A stretch of DNA of 64,000 nt from NCBI GenBank assembly GCA_937139415.1, contig CAKZPS010000063.1:1-64000 (forward strand), written 5' to 3'. The notes below the pieces were generated by a model. It searched no databases, was not told the DNA's origin, and saw only the letters and a list, made by a program, of their open reading frames with translations. The position numbers were made by a program, and so were the translations under genes. Shown here piece after piece: positions 15,177 to 25,899 of the stretch. This DNA is from an uncultured bacterium (lineage in GTDB: Bacteria; Atribacterota; Atribacteria; Atribacterales; Caldatribacteriaceae). Each line of letters opens with the position of its first letter. Position 1 is the first letter of the stretch.

Positions 15177-16183
15177 TGGCATTCTCTAAGGAGTATCCCT
15201 TTTTCCCGCGCGGCGTTCGCTCCTTTTTCGCTTATATCGCCTTTTTCAAGAAATACAGCGAGGCTCGTTCCCAAACGTGAATCGACTGGCCTCTCTCCTT
15301 GAGGTAAGCCGTCGTACCGTCTATCGATACCTCGACATTTTGCAGGACGATTTTGGTGCACCCCTTGCTTTTTCTCGCGAGAGAGGGGGGATATTTTTTC
15401 ACTTCCTCTTGGAATTTCCCTTTTCCCGAATTCTCGGAAGGAGAACTCCTTTCGCTTTTCATTCTGGTAAATGTCCTGAAACAGTTTGAGAATACACCTC
15501 TTGAGGAATCACTCCAGGTTCTGCGCAAGAAACTCGAAAAAATTTTCCCCTCACTCTTAGGAATCATACCGGATAATCTGCGCATGATGCTTTCACCATT
15601 TGTTTCAGTTCTCGAACCCCGGGTATCAATCAGTGAAAATTTCCGAAAAGTCTTTGGGGCTATTCGAAATTATAGAAAGATTCGCATTACCTATCGTTCT
15701 CTTTCCTCCGGTGAGAGGAGGGTCCGCGACGTTGAACCCTATCACCTCTATAACTTTGAGGGAGTGTGGTATCTTTGTGGCTTTTGTCTCGAACGTCAAG
15801 CGTTACGTGATTTTGCTCTGGATCGCATGGAGGATATCGTGATTTTGCCAGAGCGGTTCGTGATGCCTCCTGATTTCGACCCGCATGTTTACCTCTCTCG
15901 GGCTTTTCGCATGTTTCGGGGAGAGGTTTGCCGAGTGGTTGTGCGCTTCGATCCCTACCAGGCTCAGTGGATACGGGAACGCATCTGGCATCCTACCCAA
16001 AAAATTACCGAGCTTGAGGACGGAGGGCTTCTTTTTGAAGTTGAGGGCAACCAGGAAGAGATCAAAAGATGGGTCATGGGGTATGGAACGCATGCTGAGA
16101 TCATAGAGCCACCCTCACTCCGGGAGGAGGTGAAGGAGGAGATTAAAAAATTGTATATCCAGTACTTTGAGAGTGACAGGTAG
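15177..16183 (+). pseudogene. WYL-domain transcriptional regulator of the cas locus (two frameshifts)
   Basis: Rebuilt protein of about 335 residues. It starts MAFSKEY at GTG 15177 (ribosome site GGGAGGTG), then has a DeoR-type winged helix (LFQEIQRGSF, LASLLEVSRRTVYRYLDILQ) and a C-terminal WYL domain (IRITYRSLSSGERR, then VEPYHLYNFEGVWYLCGFC, ALDRM). The frame shifts once between about 15205 and 15215 (near CCCGCGCGG) and once at 15385-15390, where a run of six G stands for five (restoring ERGGYFF). WYL proteins next to cas operons usually act as repressors that respond to nucleic-acid or nucleotide ligands. With both the HTH and the middle out of frame, control of the cas genes is probably lost. 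Confidence 0.8.
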
Positions 16184-16229: not shown

Positions 16230-16994
16230 ATGCGAATACAGGTGACATTCAGGGTTGAACGCCTCCCTCTTTTGTATCGCAATGCCTTCATGAGTTTTCT
16301 CAAAGAGGTTCTGCAGGCGACACCCTCGGGAGAGAGGCGCTTTCCTGTGCTTTTTTTCTATGACCAGCGGAAAAACAAGGCTCCTAAGCCCTTTGGTTTT
16401 GCCGTTCGTTTTACCCATGACAAAGAACGTTTTGCTAAGGAGCAGGAATGGTTATACTTCACTTCTCCTCTCTTTTTGTACCTCTCTGTTTTCGAGGCCG
16501 GACCTTTCATCGACTTTTACAATGGTTTTCTTCAGGAACCGATCTATCCCTTCTTGAAAGAAGAGTTCGTACTTCCTCGGCCGGTGAGCATTCTTCCCCT
16601 TCGGGAGAAAAAAATCCTCAAAGAAGGAGCCCGCTTTCGTACGCTCTCGCCGATCTTGATCGAGGACGCTTCTCAAAAGCCCATCCTTCCGGAGGAAGAC
16701 CCCCAGGCTTTCCTGCGGGAACTCAACTACTATGCCGATACCATGCTTTCGGGAGTGCGAGGGAGAGGTCTTTTACGGGAGCTTGGATTTGAGCCGTTGA
16801 GGCTTCGGAAGGAGGTTGTAAAGCATGCCATAAAGAAAGGGGAAAAGGAATCTCGGGTGTATACCTTTACTTGTTTCAGCGGGGAATTCCTCATCCGTGG
16901 AGACCCCCAGGACCTCTATGACATTCAAATTCTCGGTCTTGGTCGGCGCCGTGCCCAAGGCTTTGGAATGCTTGAGGTAGTAGGCAATGGATGA
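16230..16994 (+). CDS. cas6: CRISPR-associated endoribonuclease Cas6
   Basis: Pre-crRNA processing nuclease, 254 residues. The C-terminal glycine-rich loop LGRRRAQGFGMLE (about 237-249) is the hallmark of Cas6, and the N-terminal MRIQVTFRVERLPLLYRNAF suits the first ferredoxin-like domain. The start ATG follows AAAGGAGGGAAG. It overlaps the next gene (cas8/cst1) by 8 bases, so it is the first gene of a compact cas operon. The frame is intact. Its natural substrate would be a repeat like the single one remaining at 24432-24460; with no array in the window it may have nothing to process. Confidence 0.85.
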   Translation: MRIQVTFRVERLPLLYRNAFMSFLKEVLQATPSGERRFPVLFFYDQRKNKAPKPFGFAVRFTHDKERFAKEQEWLYFTSPLFLYLSVFEAGPFIDFYNGFLQEPIYPFLKEEFVLPRPVSILPLREKKILKEGARFRTLSPILIEDASQKPILPEEDPQAFLRELNYYADTMLSGVRGRGLLRELGFEPLRLRKEVVKHAIKKGEKESRVYTFTCFSGEFLIRGDPQDLYDIQILGLGRRRAQGFGMLEVVGNG

Positions 16995-18742
16995 GGTGGT
17001 GCTCTATCCGGGAAGTTGGTTGTACAACGCGGGAGTAGTGGGATTACTTCGCATCCTCGATTTCGGTGGGAGGTGCAATAGTTACAAGTTTACCAACGAT
17101 GGTGTTAGAATAGATCCAAAAGCCTTCTTCAACTTTGGTTTTCTTTACTTTGCTTACGCAACTAAACTCTATCTGCTAGAGAACTTTGATCGCCTTTCGG
17201 TCTTAAAGTACAGGAAAAGTGAGATTGCGAAACAACTAGGTAAGGAAGGAGAAAGGCAGGTTAGAGAGAAGCTCAGAAACATCGATCAGGAGATTAGACA
17301 AAAAATTTTTGCTCTTGAGGCAGGGGGAGATTGACAACAATTTACGAAACAAATAGAGGATATGCGAGAACTCAATGTTTCAGCAACTCAATTGGGAATA
17401 AAAGTGGAGGAGCTTTCAAAGTTCCTGGACGAATTGAAGACGACAAAAAAAGCCTCTGATTACTTAGGGCGGTTCTACTTCAACAAGGATGTTATAGCTA
17501 ATCCAAAGGGTAGGAGGCCCCAAAGAATTGAAAAGTTCACTGAAGAATATCTTTCCTTTTTGAAAGCTAACTCTTCCCAAGACGGAGAATGTACCTGCTT
17601 TCTTTGTGGTCGTAAATATCAAGATTTGGAGTCCTTCTCTGAACTCACTGAAGGAGATTTTTCCTGTTTAGGGATAAGCAAAAATGAATTTGATAACGTG
17701 TATTCGTTCTACGCCAGTGACGGTGTATCATATCCGATGAAGTGCCCACTATGTCAATTGATTCTTTTGTGTGCCTTTGCCGGGTTTAACAAGAAGCCGA
17801 GGCAGGTGCGCGAGATTGACGAAACAGAGCATATCTTCGTGAATTATTCCCATATAGAGGAAGCTTATCGAGTGAATAACCGGCTAAATAGTTTCATGCA
17901 GGAAGCGAATTTGAAAATTTTTACAACAAAACAAAAAAATCCTCAACCCTTACTTACATACCTTAGAGGTAGTTCTTGAGGTTGTGGAGAGAAAGACGCG
18001 TTGGACGTTGGAAAATATCCTTTTCGTCGAAATAAAAACCTCGTCAAGAAAAAATCAGAACAAGCCTCATTTCGTTTACTTTAACCTGGATCAAGCTTTT
18101 GCCGAGGTCGTTGAAGAATTCAGTGCTTTCAAGCAACTGATTTCCGCTTTGGCTTTTCGTTATGAAGTAAATAAGAATGTCGAGGTCTATCTCTCTACTG
18201 AAATCCTGAAAAGGCTAATCCAGAAACAACCTATTGTACCCCTTGCTCTCAAATATCTTTCTGAAAGTATTGCTAATCAAGAAACGCGTCTTGGGCCTCT
18301 TTGGTCAATGATTGTTCTTGATTTTGTGCTTCGTAAAAAAAGAAGTGGTTTTCAGGAGGTGAGTGAATTGAGCAGTGGAGAAGTTTACGGTATCCTTCGG
18401 AGGATCCAAGATTGCGGTGCTTCCAGTTTCTCCATGGAGGAGATTGACCTCGAGAAACGTTTCCACCTTGCTCAACGATTTTTATCCCTCATCCGAGGAA
18501 CAAGAAAAGAGGATTTCTGCAATGAACTCTTGAGATTATATGTAGTCCATGAAAAACCGATACCCAAAGAAGTAAGCGATCTCATTTACGAGAGTGAAAT
18601 TGTTTCCTTCCAGGAGAAGGCATTGGCGTTTATTACCGGACTCTTGAGTTTAAGAAAGGGATCAATCTTAACCCGAGGTAGAAAATCGAACAGAGGAGGT
18701 TTCATGATGTGGAGAGAAAAGATGAGGAGAGAAAAGCATTAA
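16987..18742 (+). pseudogene. cst1: Cas8a1/Cst1, large subunit of a type I-B (Tneap) Cascade (nonsense codon and frameshift)
   Basis: Starts MDEVVLYPGSWLYNAGVVGLLRI, characteristic of Cst1/Cas8a1, and has the paired zinc-finger cysteines CTCFLCGRKY and MKCPLCQLILLCAF. Reading in one frame meets TGA at 17332-17334, after LEAGGD, and continues QQFTKQIEDMREL in the same frame. A second break near 17970 (one extra base in AGAGGTAG) moves the frame to VVLEVVERKTRWTLENILF. With one sense codon and one base removed, the protein is about 584 residues and ends at 18742, overlapping cas7. Cas8 recognises the PAM and opens target DNA, so its loss would disable interference. Confidence 0.85.
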
Positions 18743-19650
18743 CCTTGACTGCTGTGGTAAAGGCCTTTCCATTAAACTACGACGAGGGGTACGGCAATGT
18801 GGCAGTGGCAAAAAAGGTACACCGAGGTAATGGTGAAACTTACCTTTTCGCTTCCAGACAGTCGATTCGCTACAGCATTACTGAATGGTGCTTCCAAAAC
18901 GCTGGTTGGAAAAGGGCTACTGTTTCATCTGGTGAGGGAAACAAAAAAGTTGTCCAGCTTGATCTCAAACAATCATCGGGATCAGAAGAGGAAAATTATT
19001 TCGAAGAGGCCGATCTCTTTGGGTACATGATCACGACTGGAGAAACCAAAACGAGAAGCGCCGTAGCTCGGCTGACACATCTTATTTCTCTCGAGGCTTA
19101 TTACGGAGATCAAGAATTTCTCAATAACAAGGGTTTTGCCGACAGAATCAAAACAACACCGAATCTGGCAAACATCGAAACAGGGTATGGTTATTATAAG
19201 TACACCTTAGCGGTAGATCTTGATAGAGTAGGTAAGGATGAAAATTTCGGTTATAAATTTGATAAAGAGAAAAGAAAGAAAAGAGTAAAAGATTTGTTGG
19301 AAGCAATAAAATTCCTCTATCGAGATATAAAAGGTCGCAGGGAGGATCTTCGTCCTCTTTTTGTCATTGGAGGTGTTTACCCTATAAAGTTGCTCTTTTT
19401 TCACAATGCGGTTAATATCTACTGGCGTGGCTCAAAACCTTTCGTCAGCAGAGAAAGCATTAAAGAAGTGCTGAGGGTGGAATTGCGCGAAAAGAACGGA
19501 ACAAAGGAAAAAGTAGTTGACTATACAAAAATAGGTATTCAACGAGGAGAATTTGGAAATGATGGAGACTGGACAAAATCGCCTTTTGAAGCTATTGACG
19601 ATATAAAGAAGGACGTAGAAGAAGCTTTTGACAAATGGCTCCAACATTGA
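18709..19650 (+). CDS. cst2: Cas7/Cst2 (DevR family), Cascade backbone subunit
   Basis: 313 residues, RAMP-fold crRNA-binding subunit of the Tneap I-B complex. Recognisable parts are LTLTAVVKAFPLNYDEG, FASRQSIRYSITEW, FGYMITTGETKTRSAVARL and HLISLEAYYGDQEF. It starts at GTG 18709, ten bases after GAGGAGG and inside the end of cas8. Its stop overlaps the cas5 start by 16 bases. Intact. Confidence 0.88.
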   Translation: MERKDEERKALTLTAVVKAFPLNYDEGYGNVAVAKKVHRGNGETYLFASRQSIRYSITEWCFQNAGWKRATVSSGEGNKKVVQLDLKQSSGSEEENYFEEADLFGYMITTGETKTRSAVARLTHLISLEAYYGDQEFLNNKGFADRIKTTPNLANIETGYGYYKYTLAVDLDRVGKDENFGYKFDKEKRKKRVKDLLEAIKFLYRDIKGRREDLRPLFVIGGVYPIKLLFFHNAVNIYWRGSKPFVSRESIKEVLRVELREKNGTKEKVVDYTKIGIQRGEFGNDGDWTKSPFEAIDDIKKDVEEAFDKWLQH

Positions 19651-20333
19651 GGATCGAGATCAAACAGGACAAGGCTGTATATAGGACACCTTACTCTATG
19701 GAGATAATCGAAACATATCCTTTGCCTCCCTACTCCACAATTATTGGCTTTCTCCACAATATGTTGGGCTTAAAAGAAGTCCTTTGGGAAATCAATGTCT
19801 CTATTCAAGGCTCCCATGAGGGGGTATTGAGAGAATATGTCAGTTTTCACAAGTACTCTAAGGGGGAACGAGAGGGGAAAATCTATCCGATAGTAGTCAC
19901 TTCTTTGGTAAAGCCTTTTCTTGTAGTACATGTGAGGATGTCGAATGCAGACTGGCACAGACGACTTTTGGCGGCATTACAAGACCCTTTATACTTCCCT
20001 TACTTAGGACGTCCGGAAGATTTGATTACTGAGCTTAAGGTAACTGAGGTAGAAGAAACTGTTTTCCGCTCTAAGAATTCCCCAAGGGGAGGATTGGAGC
20101 TATCCTTTGACACTTACGTGCCTGTGGCTCAAGCAAGAACTTACGATCTATATGGCATGCGTTATTTTCTCCCAAGCTACTATCGTAAGAAAGAAAAAGG
20201 AACTCCTTCTAAGGGACTGCGTATGCGGGTCTTTGAATTAATCCCTGTCTTTTACGTCCAGAAGGGGAGATCGATCGTGCAAGATGTCCGAGTAGATAGC
20301 AAAGGCCTTCCCATATGGTGGATGACATTATAG
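19635..20333 (+). CDS. cas5t: Cas5 (Tneap type)
   Basis: 232 residues. The N-terminus MAPTLRIEIKQDKAVYRTP followed by METYPLPPYSTIIGF-like sequence (residues ~25-40: EIIETYPLPPYSTIIGFLH) is the Cas5 signature that holds the 5' handle of crRNA. The start ATG lies in the end of cas7 and the stop overlaps cas3 by 19 bases, as expected in a translationally coupled I-B operon. Intact. Confidence 0.87.
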   Translation: MAPTLRIEIKQDKAVYRTPYSMEIIETYPLPPYSTIIGFLHNMLGLKEVLWEINVSIQGSHEGVLREYVSFHKYSKGEREGKIYPIVVTSLVKPFLVVHVRMSNADWHRRLLAALQDPLYFPYLGRPEDLITELKVTEVEETVFRSKNSPRGGLELSFDTYVPVAQARTYDLYGMRYFLPSYYRKKEKGTPSKGLRMRVFELIPVFYVQKGRSIVQDVRVDSKGLPIWWMTL

Positions 20334-22460
20334 CTAAATCGAGGCCAAAGCAGACCCTGAAGGAACACACCGAAAAACTTCTTGAGAATTACCATGTTCT
20401 CAAAGAAAGTTATCCATTTCCTTTAAATAAAGAGGATTGGGAAATACTACAAAAAGCGTGTCTCTTCCATGATTTTGGGAAAGCAAATGAGTATTTCCAA
20501 TCTCTTATAAGAGGTCAAGGGAGCCTTAACCAGCGCCTCAACTTTCCCCACAATTTTCTCTCCATCGCCTTTATTCCTGAAAATGACGAATTGCTCATGC
20601 GATTGGTAGCTTTCCATCACTGGAGAGATATTCCTCCTATCGAAATGTAGCCTTAGAGGCTATTCATCAAGATATAGAGAGATACTTACCAAAAATTAAC
20701 GAGTAACGGTTTATTATTCTCCTGGGTTTGTTGAATCGTCTGGATCACGCTTCATCTGCAGGAGTGTCTGTAGAGAAGAGAAGACTTGAAAAATTTCCGG
20801 TAACCAGAGGCAAATTATTGCAAAAGACCTCCTGTCCCTGGCAGTTAAAAGAATTTAAGGAACAATATCAACAGCAAAACGGAGTTATTGCGGCCTCTAC
20901 AGGCTTGGGAAAGACCGAGATGGGGCTCTTGTGGAGCGGTGGAGGGAAAACTTTCTATACTCTCCCCATACGGACCTCAGGTAATCCATGTTCGACCGAT
21001 TAGTCAAGTACTTTGGAAATGAAAATGTTGGTCTTCTCCACAGTGATGCGTTTGGAAGAATCTTGCTTGGTATGGGAGAAAAGGGGGAGACCGATGACGC
21101 ATTGGTACATTATGATACGGCAAAAAACCTCTCGTTTCCTCTTACCGTAGCCACGGCGGATCAAGTGTTCACCTCAGCCTTAAAATTTTTGGGGTTTGAG
21201 AAGATTTACGCTACCTTATCATATTCGAAAATCATTGTAGATGAGATTCAGGCTTATTCTCCTGCCACTGTTGCCATTATCATACAAGCTCTTCAAGAGG
21301 TTCAGAAGCTTGGGGGTAAATATCTCGTTCTCACGGCTACCCTACCTCCTATCATCAAGAGTCATCTCGAGTGCGACTTTTACATTGAGCATATCCCTAA
21401 CTTGGAGAAACACCGAGTGGAACTAGTTTCTGCAGAGATAAATTCTCAAGTCATAAGGTTTGTAGGGAAGTTTTGGGGAAAGAAGATTTTGATTGTCTGC
21501 AACACGGTTAGGAAAGCTCAGGAGGTATATCGAATTCTCAAGGACCGGTATTCTCGATTTCGGGGGTACGATATAGAAAGCTGTTGTGTCAAAAGAAATC
21601 CCCTAATTCTATTTCATGGTTGCTTCACGTCTTGGGATAAAAGGGAAAAGGAGCGTATTGTCCTCGATCAAAAATTCTTGGGTATCTTGGTGGCAACACA
21701 GGTGGTTGAGGTGTCGTTGGACATTGATTTCGATGTCCTCTTGACTGAACTTGCGCCTCTTGAAGTTTTGATTCAGCGAATGGGCAGGATTTATAGGCGA
21801 TACAAGGAAGACGGAAAATACGCTCTGCAAGAACCTAATGTTTATGTCTTCACTGAAAATCCCTCAGGAAAAGGGACTGTGTACGAATCTGAAATTGTTT
21901 CAAAAACTCTGTCTTTTCTCAAGGATGGTATCCTTTCAGAAAGAAACAAGTTAGAAATGGTAGATCAATTCTATTCAGAAGCAAATCTTAGGGATACCAG
22001 ATACCTTGCCTTGTTTCGGAATGCTTTGGATTTCCTTAATAAAAGCTATGGCGAGAATAGTAAGGACAAAGCACAGGAAATTTTCCGGGGTATGGATTCC
22101 GTTAATGTCTTACCATCATCTTTTCTGGAAAGTCCAATTCAAAACCCGTCTCTTTTACAACATTTGTGTCTTCAGCAAGGTATCTCCTTAAAGTCTGCGC
22201 TTATCGGAATTAATTATGGAAACCGAGCTCAAAGGATGCTTGGCTACGAACTCATCAAAGATTTCCTTGTGCCTATAAGGACCTGGACTTTACAAAAAAC
22301 TGAGAGCAAAAGTCTATCGGACCTCGTTAAAAATGATCTTTTTAGAGGCATCTTGGTAGTTGATGGAAGATATGATGAGGAAGGTTTTAAGATTGACGCT
22401 AGAGATTGCAAAAACAGCACTTTCTCTGAGGGGGAAACTTTTGGGGATGGCATCATATGA
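20315..22460 (+). pseudogene. cas3: Cas3 helicase-nuclease (two frameshifts and a nonsense codon)
   Basis: N-terminal HD nuclease (CLFHDFGKAN, HNFLSIAF, FHHWRD) followed by a superfamily 2 helicase: ASTGLGKTEMGLL (motif I), YSKIIVDEIQAYSP (DExH-like box), LVLTATLPP (motif III) and IQRMGRIYRRY (motif VI). Three lesions are seen. Near 20637 one T is missing, breaking IPPYRNVALEAIHQD. TAA at 20704-20706 falls within KINE-RFIILLGLLNRLDH, explained by CAA to TAA. Near 20986 one G is missing, breaking TSGNAMFDRLVKYFG. Repaired length is about 715 residues. The nuclease and ATP-binding parts are separated from the rest, so DNA destruction should be lost. Confidence 0.87.
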
Positions 22461-22969
22461 GTGATTTCTTGGGGACGTTGGAGAATCTTCACATTACTGG
22501 AGTGAGGGTAAACTACTTCTTTGTATGCCCAAGAAAGCTCTGGCTCTTTGACCGGGGTATACAAATGGAGAAGAACTCCGATCGGGTCTTTTTGGGGAGA
22601 CTCCTTGACGAAGAGAGCTTCCCCAGGAAAAGGAAGAGGATAACCATTGACGATCTCATCGCCATTGATGTTCTCGATGATACAACTGTTTACGAAGTGA
22701 AGTACAGCAGGTCTTTTGAGAAGGCGAGCAAAATGCAACTTGGATATTATCTCTATTACTTGCGAAAGTTGGGTATCGAGAGGGAGGGGCTTCTCTCCTA
22801 TCCCCGGCTTCGGAGAAGAGAGAGTATGATACTCACGGATGGGTTTATTCAAGAAATTGAGGAAGCTCTCTTGAAGATTCAGAAAGTCCTTGCTTTACCC
22901 TCTCCTCCAAAGGCGGCGCGAAGACTATACTGTCCAACGTGCTCGTATTTTGAGTTCTGTTTTGGATAA
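22457..22969 (+). CDS. cas4: Cas4 exonuclease, iron-sulfur RecB-like
   Basis: 170 residues. One cysteine lies in NYFFVCPRKLWLF and three in CPTCSYFEFC at the C-terminus, the four ligands of the Cas4 iron-sulfur cluster. The RecB nuclease core appears as VYEVKYSRSFEKASKMQLGYYLYYL. Cas4 trims prespacers and checks the PAM with Cas1-Cas2. It overlaps cas3 by four bases (ATGA) and is intact. Confidence 0.9.
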   Translation: MSDFLGTLENLHITGVRVNYFFVCPRKLWLFDRGIQMEKNSDRVFLGRLLDEESFPRKRKRITIDDLIAIDVLDDTTVYEVKYSRSFEKASKMQLGYYLYYLRKLGIEREGLLSYPRLRRRESMILTDGFIQEIEEALLKIQKVLALPSPPKAARRLYCPTCSYFEFCFG

Positions 22970-22982
22970 AGGGGGGGTAGAG

Positions 22983-23960
22983 ATGCAGCCATACTATATC
23001 CTGAGTAGCGGAGTGATGAGAAGAAACGAGAATACTCTGCTTATTGAGAAAGAGGATGGGAAAAGAAAGGTTATTCCCATCGAGAATATGGATGCCCTTC
23101 ACCTTTTCGGACAAGTCACTCTCAACACCAATCTCCTCACTTTTCTCGCTCAGCAGGAGAAGCCTCTTCACGTGTATAACTATTATGGGTTCTACAGCGG
23201 CACCTTTCTTCCCCGAGAGGGAAACATTTCGGGAGAAGTCTTGGTTCACCAAGTCGAACATTACCTTAATCCTCAAAAGCGCTTTTCTCTTGCTCTTTCT
23301 TTTGTGGAGGGAGCCATATTTCATGCTCGAAGAAATCTGCGGGAATACCAGGAAACCACATTGTTCATTCAAAAGATTGAGGAAGAGCTGGAGCAGGCAA
23401 AGTATGTGACCACCATTTCCGAGCTTATGGGTTGCGAAGGAAGAGCAAAAGAGGCGTATTATAGAGCGTGGAACATATTTCTTAAAGAAGAATTCCCTTT
23501 TGAAAAAAGAATCAAACATTCTCCCTCGGATCCGGTGAACGCACTCATTTCCTTCGGGAATTCGCTGCTTTATACTACTATTCTCTCCGAGTGTTACAAA
23601 ACCCACCTTCATCCTGCGATTAGTTACCTTTATGAGCCGCGAGAGAGGAGATTTTCTCTGTGTCTTGACCTTGCGGAGATCTTTAAACCCCTTATAGTTG
23701 ATCCAATCATTTTTCGTCTTGTCAATTCTGGTGTTATTGTAAAACGTGACTTTATTCGGGATCTTGAGGGTTGCTATCTCAACGAGGAAGGACGCAAGAA
23801 ATTTCTCCAGGCTTTCGAAGAAAAATTGTGTACCACCATTAAACATCGCCGTCTAAAGCGCAAGGTTTCTTACAGGACCGTTTTGCGCCTCGAGTGCTAC
23901 AAGCTCATCAAGCACCTTCTGGGGGATGAAGTGTATGCTCCCTTTAAGGCGTGGTGGTAA
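22983..23960 (+). CDS. cas1: Cas1 integrase (type I-B)
   Basis: Spacer-integration nuclease, 325 residues, starting MQPYYILSSGVMRRNENTLLI at ATG 22983. The upstream part of this open frame overlaps cas4 and is not family-like. Metal-binding residues are in place: Glu in ELMGCEGRAKEAYY, His in THLHPAISYLYEP, Asp in LCLDLAEIFKP. SDPVNALISFGNSLLYT is the usual central helix. It is 13 bases after cas4 and one base before cas2. The protein looks intact, but its partner Cas2 is broken. Confidence 0.92.
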   Translation: MQPYYILSSGVMRRNENTLLIEKEDGKRKVIPIENMDALHLFGQVTLNTNLLTFLAQQEKPLHVYNYYGFYSGTFLPREGNISGEVLVHQVEHYLNPQKRFSLALSFVEGAIFHARRNLREYQETTLFIQKIEEELEQAKYVTTISELMGCEGRAKEAYYRAWNIFLKEEFPFEKRIKHSPSDPVNALISFGNSLLYTTILSECYKTHLHPAISYLYEPRERRFSLCLDLAEIFKPLIVDPIIFRLVNSGVIVKRDFIRDLEGCYLNEEGRKKFLQAFEEKLCTTIKHRRLKRKVSYRTVLRLECYKLIKHLLGDEVYAPFKAWW

Positions 23961-23961
23961 C

Positions 23962-24231
23962 ATGCCGTACTGTATCGTGACTTATGATGTTGGGGAGGAG
24001 TGAATTAACCGGGTGCGGAAGATTCTTAAACGCTATTTCACTTGAGTTCAGAATTCTGTTTTTGAAGGAGAGATTCGGGAAGGCATGCTCGAAAAGTGCT
24101 TTCGGGAAATACAAAAAGCCATAAAAGAGGATAGTGACTCCGTATATGTATACCATTTTGAACTTCAAAGTTCGTGTGTAAAACGCGTCATTGGTTGCGA
24201 AAAAGAAAAGGTGCTCAATCTTATATCGTAG
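23962..24231 (+). pseudogene. cas2: Cas2 (two in-frame TGA codons)
   Basis: Reading from ATG 23962 gives MPYCIVTYDVGEE, TGA (24001-24003), INRVRKILKRYFT, TGA (24043-24045), VQNSVFEGEIREGMLEK and on to TAG at 24229-24231, 89 codons in one frame. This is clearly Cas2: a TYDV strand with its Asp, then KRYFT-W-VQNSVFEGE. The first TGA sits where relatives often have Arg (CGA to TGA) and the second exactly at the conserved Trp (TGG to TGA). Both are explained by single C-to-T or G-to-A changes. TGA ends many intact genes here and TGG encodes Trp elsewhere, so recoding is unlikely. The gene is too short on each side to be listed as an open frame. Confidence 0.88.
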
Positions 24232-24990
24232 TTTTCTGCATCGAAGGGGTGGTGTTCTTGACTACCTTAAGAGGAGCTTTATTTCTGGATAGAAGCACAT
24301 TTTTGAGGGTTGGGTGGAAAACCCTACCGGAGGTTCGCTGCAGAAAGTTTCATTTTTGGACTTTTCCTTTCCTCAAGAAAATGTTTCTTTCTCTTTTCGT
24401 ACATGCGTTTTTATTTTTATTTGGTTTTTGGGTTTGATCTGAACTATGTGGGATGTAAACACGTTTTAGGTTTTTCATCTCCGTTAGTAGTAACCCGCTT
24501 TTCCTTGTTACCGCGAGGCGCATGTTCCGTGCCGTGGCGTGGTCTCTCTTTTGAATCAAGAGAAAAAGATGTTTCGCCTTAGTGGAGGTCGTAATGGAAA
24601 ACCAGGTTCACGAGGACGAATGAGAGAAACTGAGGTTCGAAAAAACGGGGGAAACGAGATTTGTCATACTCCCAGACGTCATATTCTTGGGTTCTTATCG
24701 TGATTAGAATTTAATCAGACTATACGCATGCACAAGAACCTGCGCACATTATCCTCACGTTATGAGAGAATGAAGCGGGCTACGCCCGAGGCGTTCAGAC
24801 GCCTCTCTCACATGATTGGCTTCTTGGGGATTGTGAATATTTTTTTCGAGATCTCTCTTTAGGTTAATCGATTCCGTGTTTTTGCCTCTCTCTTGACAAA
24901 GAGGAAAATACACCCTTCTGAAAATCTGGAATCTCCTACAATAAGGGGTAGGAAAATGAGTTTTTCGAAATCGAGGGAACAGAGGAGGTG
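24232..24990. other. Gene-free region after cas2
   Basis: About 760 bases without a supported gene. It holds the single repeat at 24432-24460 and two adjacent hairpins at 24775-24804 (GCGGGC-TA-CGCCCG-like, then AGGCGT-TCAG-ACGCCT). These could mark a terminator or small structured RNA, though no T run follows. A consensus TTGACA at 24893-24898 has no good -10 at 16-18 bases. The rest is T-rich and shows no protein-like composition. It is probably the footprint of a lost CRISPR array and leader. Confidence 0.5.
24432..24460 (+). CRISPR. Solitary CRISPR-repeat-like remnant
   Basis: A 29-base segment beginning GTTTGATCTGAACTATG and ending GGGATGTAAAC, 200 bases after cas2. It has the length, the GTTT start and the ...AAAC end typical of thermophile type I-B repeats. 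No second copy is found at spacer distance (60-70 bases) on either side, nor elsewhere in the window on either strand. It is best read as the last relic of the array, perhaps a degenerate terminal repeat. It could also be a chance resemblance, but the position beside cas2 argues against that. Confidence 0.6.
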
Positions 24991-25056
24991 ATGAGCGAGA
25001 CCAAAGTGATCACTAAGGTTGGTAAGCTTATCTTGGGTAATACGAAAATTTTTTAA
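24991..25056 (+). CDS. Possible 21-residue leader peptide
   Basis: ATG at 24991 directly follows a strong GAGGAGGTG ribosome site and opens a 21-codon frame (MSETKVITKVGKLILGNTKI, then F, stop). It lies about 60 bases before the c-di-GMP riboswitch. No family is recognised. It may be a leader peptide, or the start of a gene whose remainder has decayed. Support comes only from the ribosome site and short frame. Confidence 0.3.
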   Translation: MSETKVITKVGKLILGNTKIF

Positions 25057-25114
25057 AATTCCCCCTTTTCCCCCTAAAGTTCTTTCTTCCTTTGCCGATA
25101 TACAGAGTAAGGAA

Positions 25115-25196
25115 ATGAAAGGGTAAACTCTCCGAAAGGGGAGGGCACAAAGCCACGGGCCTACGGTGGGAACACTAAGGTAGCCGGGTTGCCAAG
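25115..25196 (+). promoter_or_regulatory. Cyclic di-GMP-I (GEMM) riboswitch
   Basis: The order of conserved elements matches the GEMM-I aptamer: AAAGGGTAAACT, a hairpin CTCTCC-GAAA-GGGGAG with GNRA loop, GGGCACAAAGCC (consensus GGACGCAAAGCC), CACGGGCCTA, a second arm, then GGTAGCCGGGTTGCC closing with the first segment. This aptamer senses c-di-GMP. It lies 65 bases before the C39-like lipoprotein gene, whose ribosome site can be paired (see 25230-25253). Identification is by eye; a covariance-model search would settle it. Confidence 0.85.
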
Positions 25197-25229
25197 TTCC
25201 TTTCTTTTTAGGCTTGTTTTGTTGCCCAT

Positions 25230-25253
25230 ACTCCCTCTCGGATGCAAGGGGGT
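25230..25253 (+). promoter_or_regulatory. Hairpin covering the ribosome site of the C39-like lipoprotein gene
   Basis: ACTCCCT (25230-25236) can pair with AGGGGGT (25247-25253), a 7-bp stem with one G-T pair. AGGGGG is the Shine-Dalgarno of the ATG at 25261. It may be the output element of the upstream riboswitch, acting on translation; no T-tailed terminator is seen between aptamer and gene. Confidence 0.45.
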
Positions 25254-25260
25254 CTTCGGG

Positions 25261-25899
25261 ATGAGAAAACGGCAGGTCGTCTTCTTGGTTTTAGGTTTAT
25301 TGGTAGTGGTCTTAGCCGGGTGTTCTTCGCAGCTCACGCTTCCCCCTCAGAATCGAGAAAGTCTCTTTCTCTCCCGATGGGTAGAGAATTCCTCTTCTCG
25401 GGTACTCCTTGACGTTCCATTTTTGCCTCAGGTTCCCCCTGGTGATTGGGCCAATACCCGTAATTGTGGAGTTGCTGCGGCAGTGATGGTGAAGGCTTAC
25501 TACTATGGGAGTACTCCAACTCCCCAAGACATTGTTGAAGCCGATGAATGGCTTCACGCCCGTTTTGGACTTCCGCTCAATAATTATAATGGAGATTTTA
25601 CCAATGTTTTTCAAATCCGTAGTTGGCTTGAAGCGCAAGGGATTTCGACTCGTATCGGTATGGGAAATGGAGAGATGTTACGTTCTTTTCTGAAGGAAGG
25701 AAAACCGGTCATTGTTGCCGTTTTTGCCCACATGAATCCGAGGAGTGCTAAACACGCCATGCTCCTTGTAGGAATGACCCAGGATGCGGTGATCGTACAT
25801 GATCCTGGGAAACCTAATGGCGCGAGCAACGTGTATTCTCTCAATCAATTCTTATCAAGTTGGCAGGCGCAGAATAACTGGTATATCACCATTGAATGA
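25261..25899 (+). CDS. C39-like (papain-fold) peptidase family lipoprotein
   Basis: 212 residues. A lipoprotein signal peptide ends in the lipobox LAGC (Cys about 21). The body is a peptidase_C39-like domain with the catalytic triad visible: Cys69 in NCGVAAA, His165 in KHAMLLVG and Asp181 in VHDPGK. PVIVAVFAH is the typical strand before the His. It probably cleaves or binds peptides at the outer face of the cytoplasmic or outer membrane. It starts at ATG 25261, eight bases after AGGGGG. Frames upstream of that ATG lie in the riboswitch and are not coding. Control by c-di-GMP suggests a role in surface or biofilm change, for example processing of an adhesin; that part is inference. Confidence 0.8.
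   Translation: MRKRQVVFLVLGLLVVVLAGCSSQLTLPPQNRESLFLSRWVENSSSRVLLDVPFLPQVPPGDWANTRNCGVAAAVMVKAYYYGSTPTPQDIVEADEWLHARFGLPLNNYNGDFTNVFQIRSWLEAQGISTRIGMGNGEMLRSFLKEGKPVIVAVFAHMNPRSAKHAMLLVGMTQDAVIVHDPGKPNGASNVYSLNQFLSSWQAQNNWYITIE

Follow-up and report, generated by a model that had tools for sequence, protein, structure and literature searches.

A single type I-B CRISPR repeat behind its leader, beside decayed cas genes, in an Atribacterota genome

The 64,000-nucleotide stretch analyzed here (the window) carries one type I-B CRISPR repeat directly behind a leader and next to an operon in which several cas genes are broken, and we consider it very likely that this lone repeat is the survivor of a decayed type I-B (Cst/Tneap-like) array that contracted after the system was inactivated. 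CRISPR remnants consisting of one repeat and its leader are already known, as is this end state; the window adds a new example and no new mechanism, and it leaves the current understanding of CRISPR function unchanged. Its value is as a clear example of a CRISPR-Cas locus in mid-decay in a thermophile-associated phylum, in a genome whose second system is also eroded. The features of the locus, all on the plus strand, are the following, with L010 and L079 denoting related loci in a Candidatus Atribacteria MAG and in Candidatus Kryptonium thompsonii, respectively.

15196..16183, plus strand: WYL-type regulator gene adjoining the cas operon, with a frameshift near 15400 (the 407-aa L010 homologue aligns by tblastn in two frames)
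16230..16994, plus strand: cas6, intact open frame (PADLOC Cas6b, E 3.7e-45; 60% identity to L010)
16987..18742, plus strand: cas8b (Cst1-like) pseudogene, with an in-frame TGA at 17332 and a frameshift at about 17931-17942 (seen by tblastn with the intact L079 Cas8b, 588 aa)
18709..19650, plus strand: cas7 (Cst2/DevR type), open
19635..20333, plus strand: cas5 (I-B/Tneap type), open
20315..22460, plus strand: cas3 pseudogene, with frameshifts near 20645 and 20980 and an in-frame TAA at 20704
22457..22969, plus strand: cas4, intact open frame (PADLOC Cas4b, E 7.6e-55)
22974..23960, plus strand: cas1, intact open frame of 328 aa (start at 22890 in the ORF tool; PF01867, E 5e-90)
23962..24231, plus strand: cas2 pseudogene, with in-frame TGA at 24001 and 24043 (68% amino acid identity to L010 Cas2)
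24232..24431, plus strand: CRISPR leader remnant, with motif GAGGTTCGCTGCAGAAA at 24330-24346 and the junction TGG/GTTT kept (aligned with the leaders of relatives)
24432..24460, plus strand: single CRISPR repeat, type I-B, in leader-proximal position

The repeat, GTTTGATCTGAACTATGTGGGATGTAAAC, is 29 nt long, lies exactly at 24432-24460 on the plus strand, and starts 200 nt past the stop codon (TAG, 24229-24231) of the cas2 remnant. It is present once in the window, where shuffles of the window predict none, and a search of the 2.32-Mb genome that tolerated three mismatches likewise gave one copy; the preliminary description had reported a single 29-base unit 200 bases after cas2, and both its coordinates and its single copy were confirmed. 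The next-best match to the 29-mer in the window, with both strands scanned, reached 19 of 29 positions, and no second or degenerate repeat above 16 of 29 was found on either strand in the adjoining kilobase. Tandem Repeats Finder reported no array at 24432-24460, a search of viral contigs with the exact 29-mer gave no match, and the site does not hold a CRISPR array in the sense of at least two repeats with spacers between them.

By comparison with related loci, the 29-mer is identified as a genuine and undamaged type I-B CRISPR repeat. Public genomes scanned with the window's Cas1 yielded 80 loci, 75 of them with enough flank, and the best Cas1 identities among the 80 were those of L010 and of Candidatus Caldatribacterium californiense (L011), both Atribacterota. 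The preliminary description had proposed a repeat of an I-B/Cst-type system, an assignment to be dropped if related I-B arrays held nothing similar. Similar repeats proved abundant: a unit matching the 29-mer at 20-27 of 29 positions occurred within 900 nt beyond cas1 in 53 of the 75 related I-B loci, visibly in tandem in 44 of these 53, while shuffled 29-mers used as control queries gave best matches of mostly 15-17 positions and reached 20-21 in 3 of 1500 trials. Repeats of relatives differ from the window repeat by one to four mismatches. Among 40 relatives scanned, five genomes (G001, G007, G010, G016 and G014) had a repeat within two mismatches of the search pattern, with 94 repeat matches in G014.

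Repeats of the same order at the matching place, after cas1, cas2 and the leader, differ from the window repeat at 2 of 29 positions, as in L010, where two copies of GTTTTATCTGAACTATGTGGGATTTAAAC follow directly; the repeat of the same-family genome G001, GTTTGATCTGAACTATGTGGGATATAAAC, is identical at 28 of 29. Each differing base is found in another Atribacterota repeat (the G at position 5 also in G001, the G at position 24 also in G007), so that no base is private to the window repeat in this comparison and it has not decayed. Agreement at 27-28 positions with repeats of the same phylum, at the correct distance from cas1 and with an expectation of zero in the window shuffles, makes it vanishingly improbable that the 29-mer, single copy though it is, resembles a repeat by chance, and we regard that explanation as already refuted. 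The I-B/Cst-type assignment is thus borne out, as is the suggested use of the 29-mer as a search key: GTTTGATCTGAACTATGTGGGATGTAAAC is the correct repeat for seeking old spacers or sister strains.

The segment between cas2 and the repeat aligns with the leaders of relatives and keeps both the motif and the junction, which places the window repeat in leader-proximal position. Its identity to the leaders of G014, G016 (the genome of L010), G010 and L011 is about 48-58%, the same level as the 45-52% found among those leaders themselves; the L011 leader has the motif, and the L011 contig stops before the repeat. By position, this alignment identifies the window repeat as the first repeat, directly after the leader and downstream of cas1-cas2, and the earlier statement that it stands where an array would begin therefore holds. 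Of the accompanying proposal, a fossil terminal repeat, the fossil part stands and the terminal part is not established: the unit adjoins the leader and its 3′ end (TAAAC) is intact. Terminal repeats are degenerate at the 3′ end in G010 (...TTAACC), in G014 (...TTAACG) and on contig C72 of this genome (...TTGACAT). After recombination between first and last repeats, the remaining unit would carry the 3′ part of the latter; because a last repeat can be intact, as it is in G001 where the assembled array ends, the intact 3′ end neither proves nor excludes this route. A survivor of recombinational collapse would be first and last repeat simultaneously. Recombinational collapse and other routes of deletion cannot be told apart from sequence alone.

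The reading frames upstream indicate that the I-B cas locus is dead. PADLOC assigned cas6, cas8b, cas7 (Cst2), cas5 (I-B/Tneap), cas3, cas4 and cas1 in the window, and the matches to Cst2 (E 1.1e-46) and Cas5 I-B/TNEAP (E 3.1e-33) mark it as a remnant of the Cst/Tneap variety; the Cst1 match was weak (1.4e-4) and lay on a fragment. Of the proteins expected intact in a functional I-B system (Cas1, Cas2, Cas3, Cas5, Cas6, Cas7 and Cas8b), three have broken genes: seven lesions are spread across cas2, cas3 and cas8b, with one more in the WYL gene. The match of the intact 739-aa L079 Cas3 (tblastn) splits over three frames, and the cas2 codons TGA at 24001 and 24043 correspond to CGG (Arg) and TGG (Trp) in L010; the cas2 changes are substitutions and not homopolymer indels, which bears on whether sequence quality could have produced the lesions. 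By comparison, cas1 has no internal stops and 75% identity to relatives. Recoding of TGA was considered and ruled out, because more open frames in the window end normally in TGA than in any other stop (26 of the 43 with at least 250 codons), and because the remaining lesions consist of TAA or frameshifts. The cas region could not be distinguished from the rest by counting open frames of at least 200 codons.

The locus cannot direct immunity now: it lacks a spacer, and neither Cas8b, which Cascade needs, nor Cas3 is intact. It could in principle still serve as a naive pre-array or retained acquisition site, for which a leader and one repeat suffice if Cas1-Cas2 is supplied; naive integration in E. 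coli requires no more than Cas1-Cas2 and one repeat (PMC10011333), and the window retains an intact leader and repeat as well as open cas1 and cas4 frames. We nevertheless consider this quite unlikely: the window cas2, with its two stops, is the sole Cas2 match in the assembly (96% complete), the interference genes are broken, and the arrays of relatives are filled, so an empty ancestral state is unlikely. Highly improbable is exaptation of the solo repeat to yield a crRNA-like RNA with a regulatory role, as CreA, the antitoxin RNA of CreTA modules, has. Single or paired repeats outside arrays do make such RNAs in type I-B systems (PMC9458426), but CreA repeats are diverged whereas the window repeat is not, and the latter occupies the array position after cas2, has no second repeat within 1 kb and lies beside a broken gene for Cas8b, which Cascade requires. 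A CreA locus would combine a spacer-like stretch and one or two diverged repeats with a functional Cascade, a combination absent here.

For the contraction of a former array, we infer an order of events that includes a recombination step. With no intact cas2 anywhere in the assembly, spacer acquisition would have ended; recombination between identical repeats would then have shrunk the array, each event removing spacer-repeat units, to an end point of one repeat between leader and trailer. A single repeat has no recombination partner, and the stump would persist. Besides the lesions in cas2, cas3, cas8b and the WYL gene and the similar units at 53 of 75 related loci, three points support this course. 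Arrays with GTTTTATCTGAACTATGTGGGATTTAAAC occupy the same place in G010, G014 and G016: they share 27 of 29 repeat positions with the window, follow cas1-cas2 behind a homologous leader, and have the same motif and junction, but they hold several to 94 repeats and an open cas2 where the window has one repeat and broken cas2, cas3 and cas8b (the count of two in L010 is set by a contig end that cuts the array). Likewise, two or more repeats stand at the end of a G001 contig, against one in the window. Secondly, decay of cas genes in Escherichia and Salmonella is accompanied by a fall in repeat number to a few copies (PMC2886076); the degraded loci of Escherichia, Shigella and Salmonella in that study resemble the window in combining cas pseudogenes with arrays of few repeats or one, although they are of types I-E and I-F in enterobacteria and the window is I-B in Atribacterota. 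Thirdly, a second I-B repeat family in this genome, described below, has reached the same end state and has a frameshifted cas1.

Counting against contraction, cas1, cas4, cas5, cas6 and cas7 are still open, and the repeat lacks the 3′ degeneration of some collapse products, although the last assembled G001 repeat is likewise intact. No sister genome was found that combines the same trailer with an intact array, and the deletion itself is unseen; a comparison of the downstream sequence (24461-25045) with 40 relatives gave no orthologous trailer, only weak stretches or short dispersed-repeat matches. The undecayed repeat beside broken cas genes is relevant to a different reading, in which selection maintains leader and repeat as a site of integration or regulation for factors from elsewhere, so that they are not a passive stump; we judge this very unlikely.

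Assembly could mimic contraction if a real array had been dropped and leader and trailer joined through a collapsed repeat. The genome is a 76-contig draft, and an exact 77-nt overlap between two contigs at another leader-repeat indicates that repeats do confuse its assembly. This is made less likely by the length of the repeat, since at 29 nt it falls far below the apparent k-mer of 77 nt and should not collapse, and by the independent inactivating changes in the cas genes; in addition, the repeat lies inside an 82-kb contig and no other contig carries it at up to three mismatches. An assembly artefact is therefore unlikely, and contraction of a real array is the reading we retain.

The overlap just mentioned belongs to the second repeat family. 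Contig C60 holds a second I-B locus, with cas1 split by a frameshift. Four copies of its repeat, GTTTGTAGCGTACCTATGAGGGATTGAAAC, are present in the genome, at three places:

C60:44690-44785: leader, repeat, one spacer and a degenerate repeat
C60:54065-54094: leader and single repeat
C72:51-80 (locus L149): leader and single repeat

The leader end is identical at all three, and the ends of C60 and C72 share exactly 77 nt, including this leader end and repeat, a length that is probably the assembler's k-mer. Across both repeat families, no copy in this genome thus belongs to an array of more than two repeats, with contig ends limiting this conclusion for two of them. In the same-family genome G004, cas1 at C49:937-1948 (L142, L147) is also split in two frames, and decay of I-B systems may have been repeated within the family.

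The closest complete match to the Cas8b, Cas7 and Cas5 of the window is L079 (3833-9453), which belongs to a different phylum and has its effector genes beside a different repeat; this distribution suggests exchange of the effector module. Downstream of the lone repeat, at 24505-24546, lies a palindromic REP-like element of dispersed type, GTCACCGCGAGGCGC...GCCGTGGCGGTCT; six or more similar copies occur elsewhere in the genome (C38:1412, C35:1301, C39:10232, C38:7623, C50:18304 and C50:35407). Further on lie a c-di-GMP-I riboswitch at 25112-25196 (Rfam RF01051, 78.8 bits) and, shortly downstream of it, an open reading frame (25189-25899) for a putative secreted protein of cysteine-peptidase type, assigned by eye; stretches similar to those of this region recur in this genome and in many relatives.
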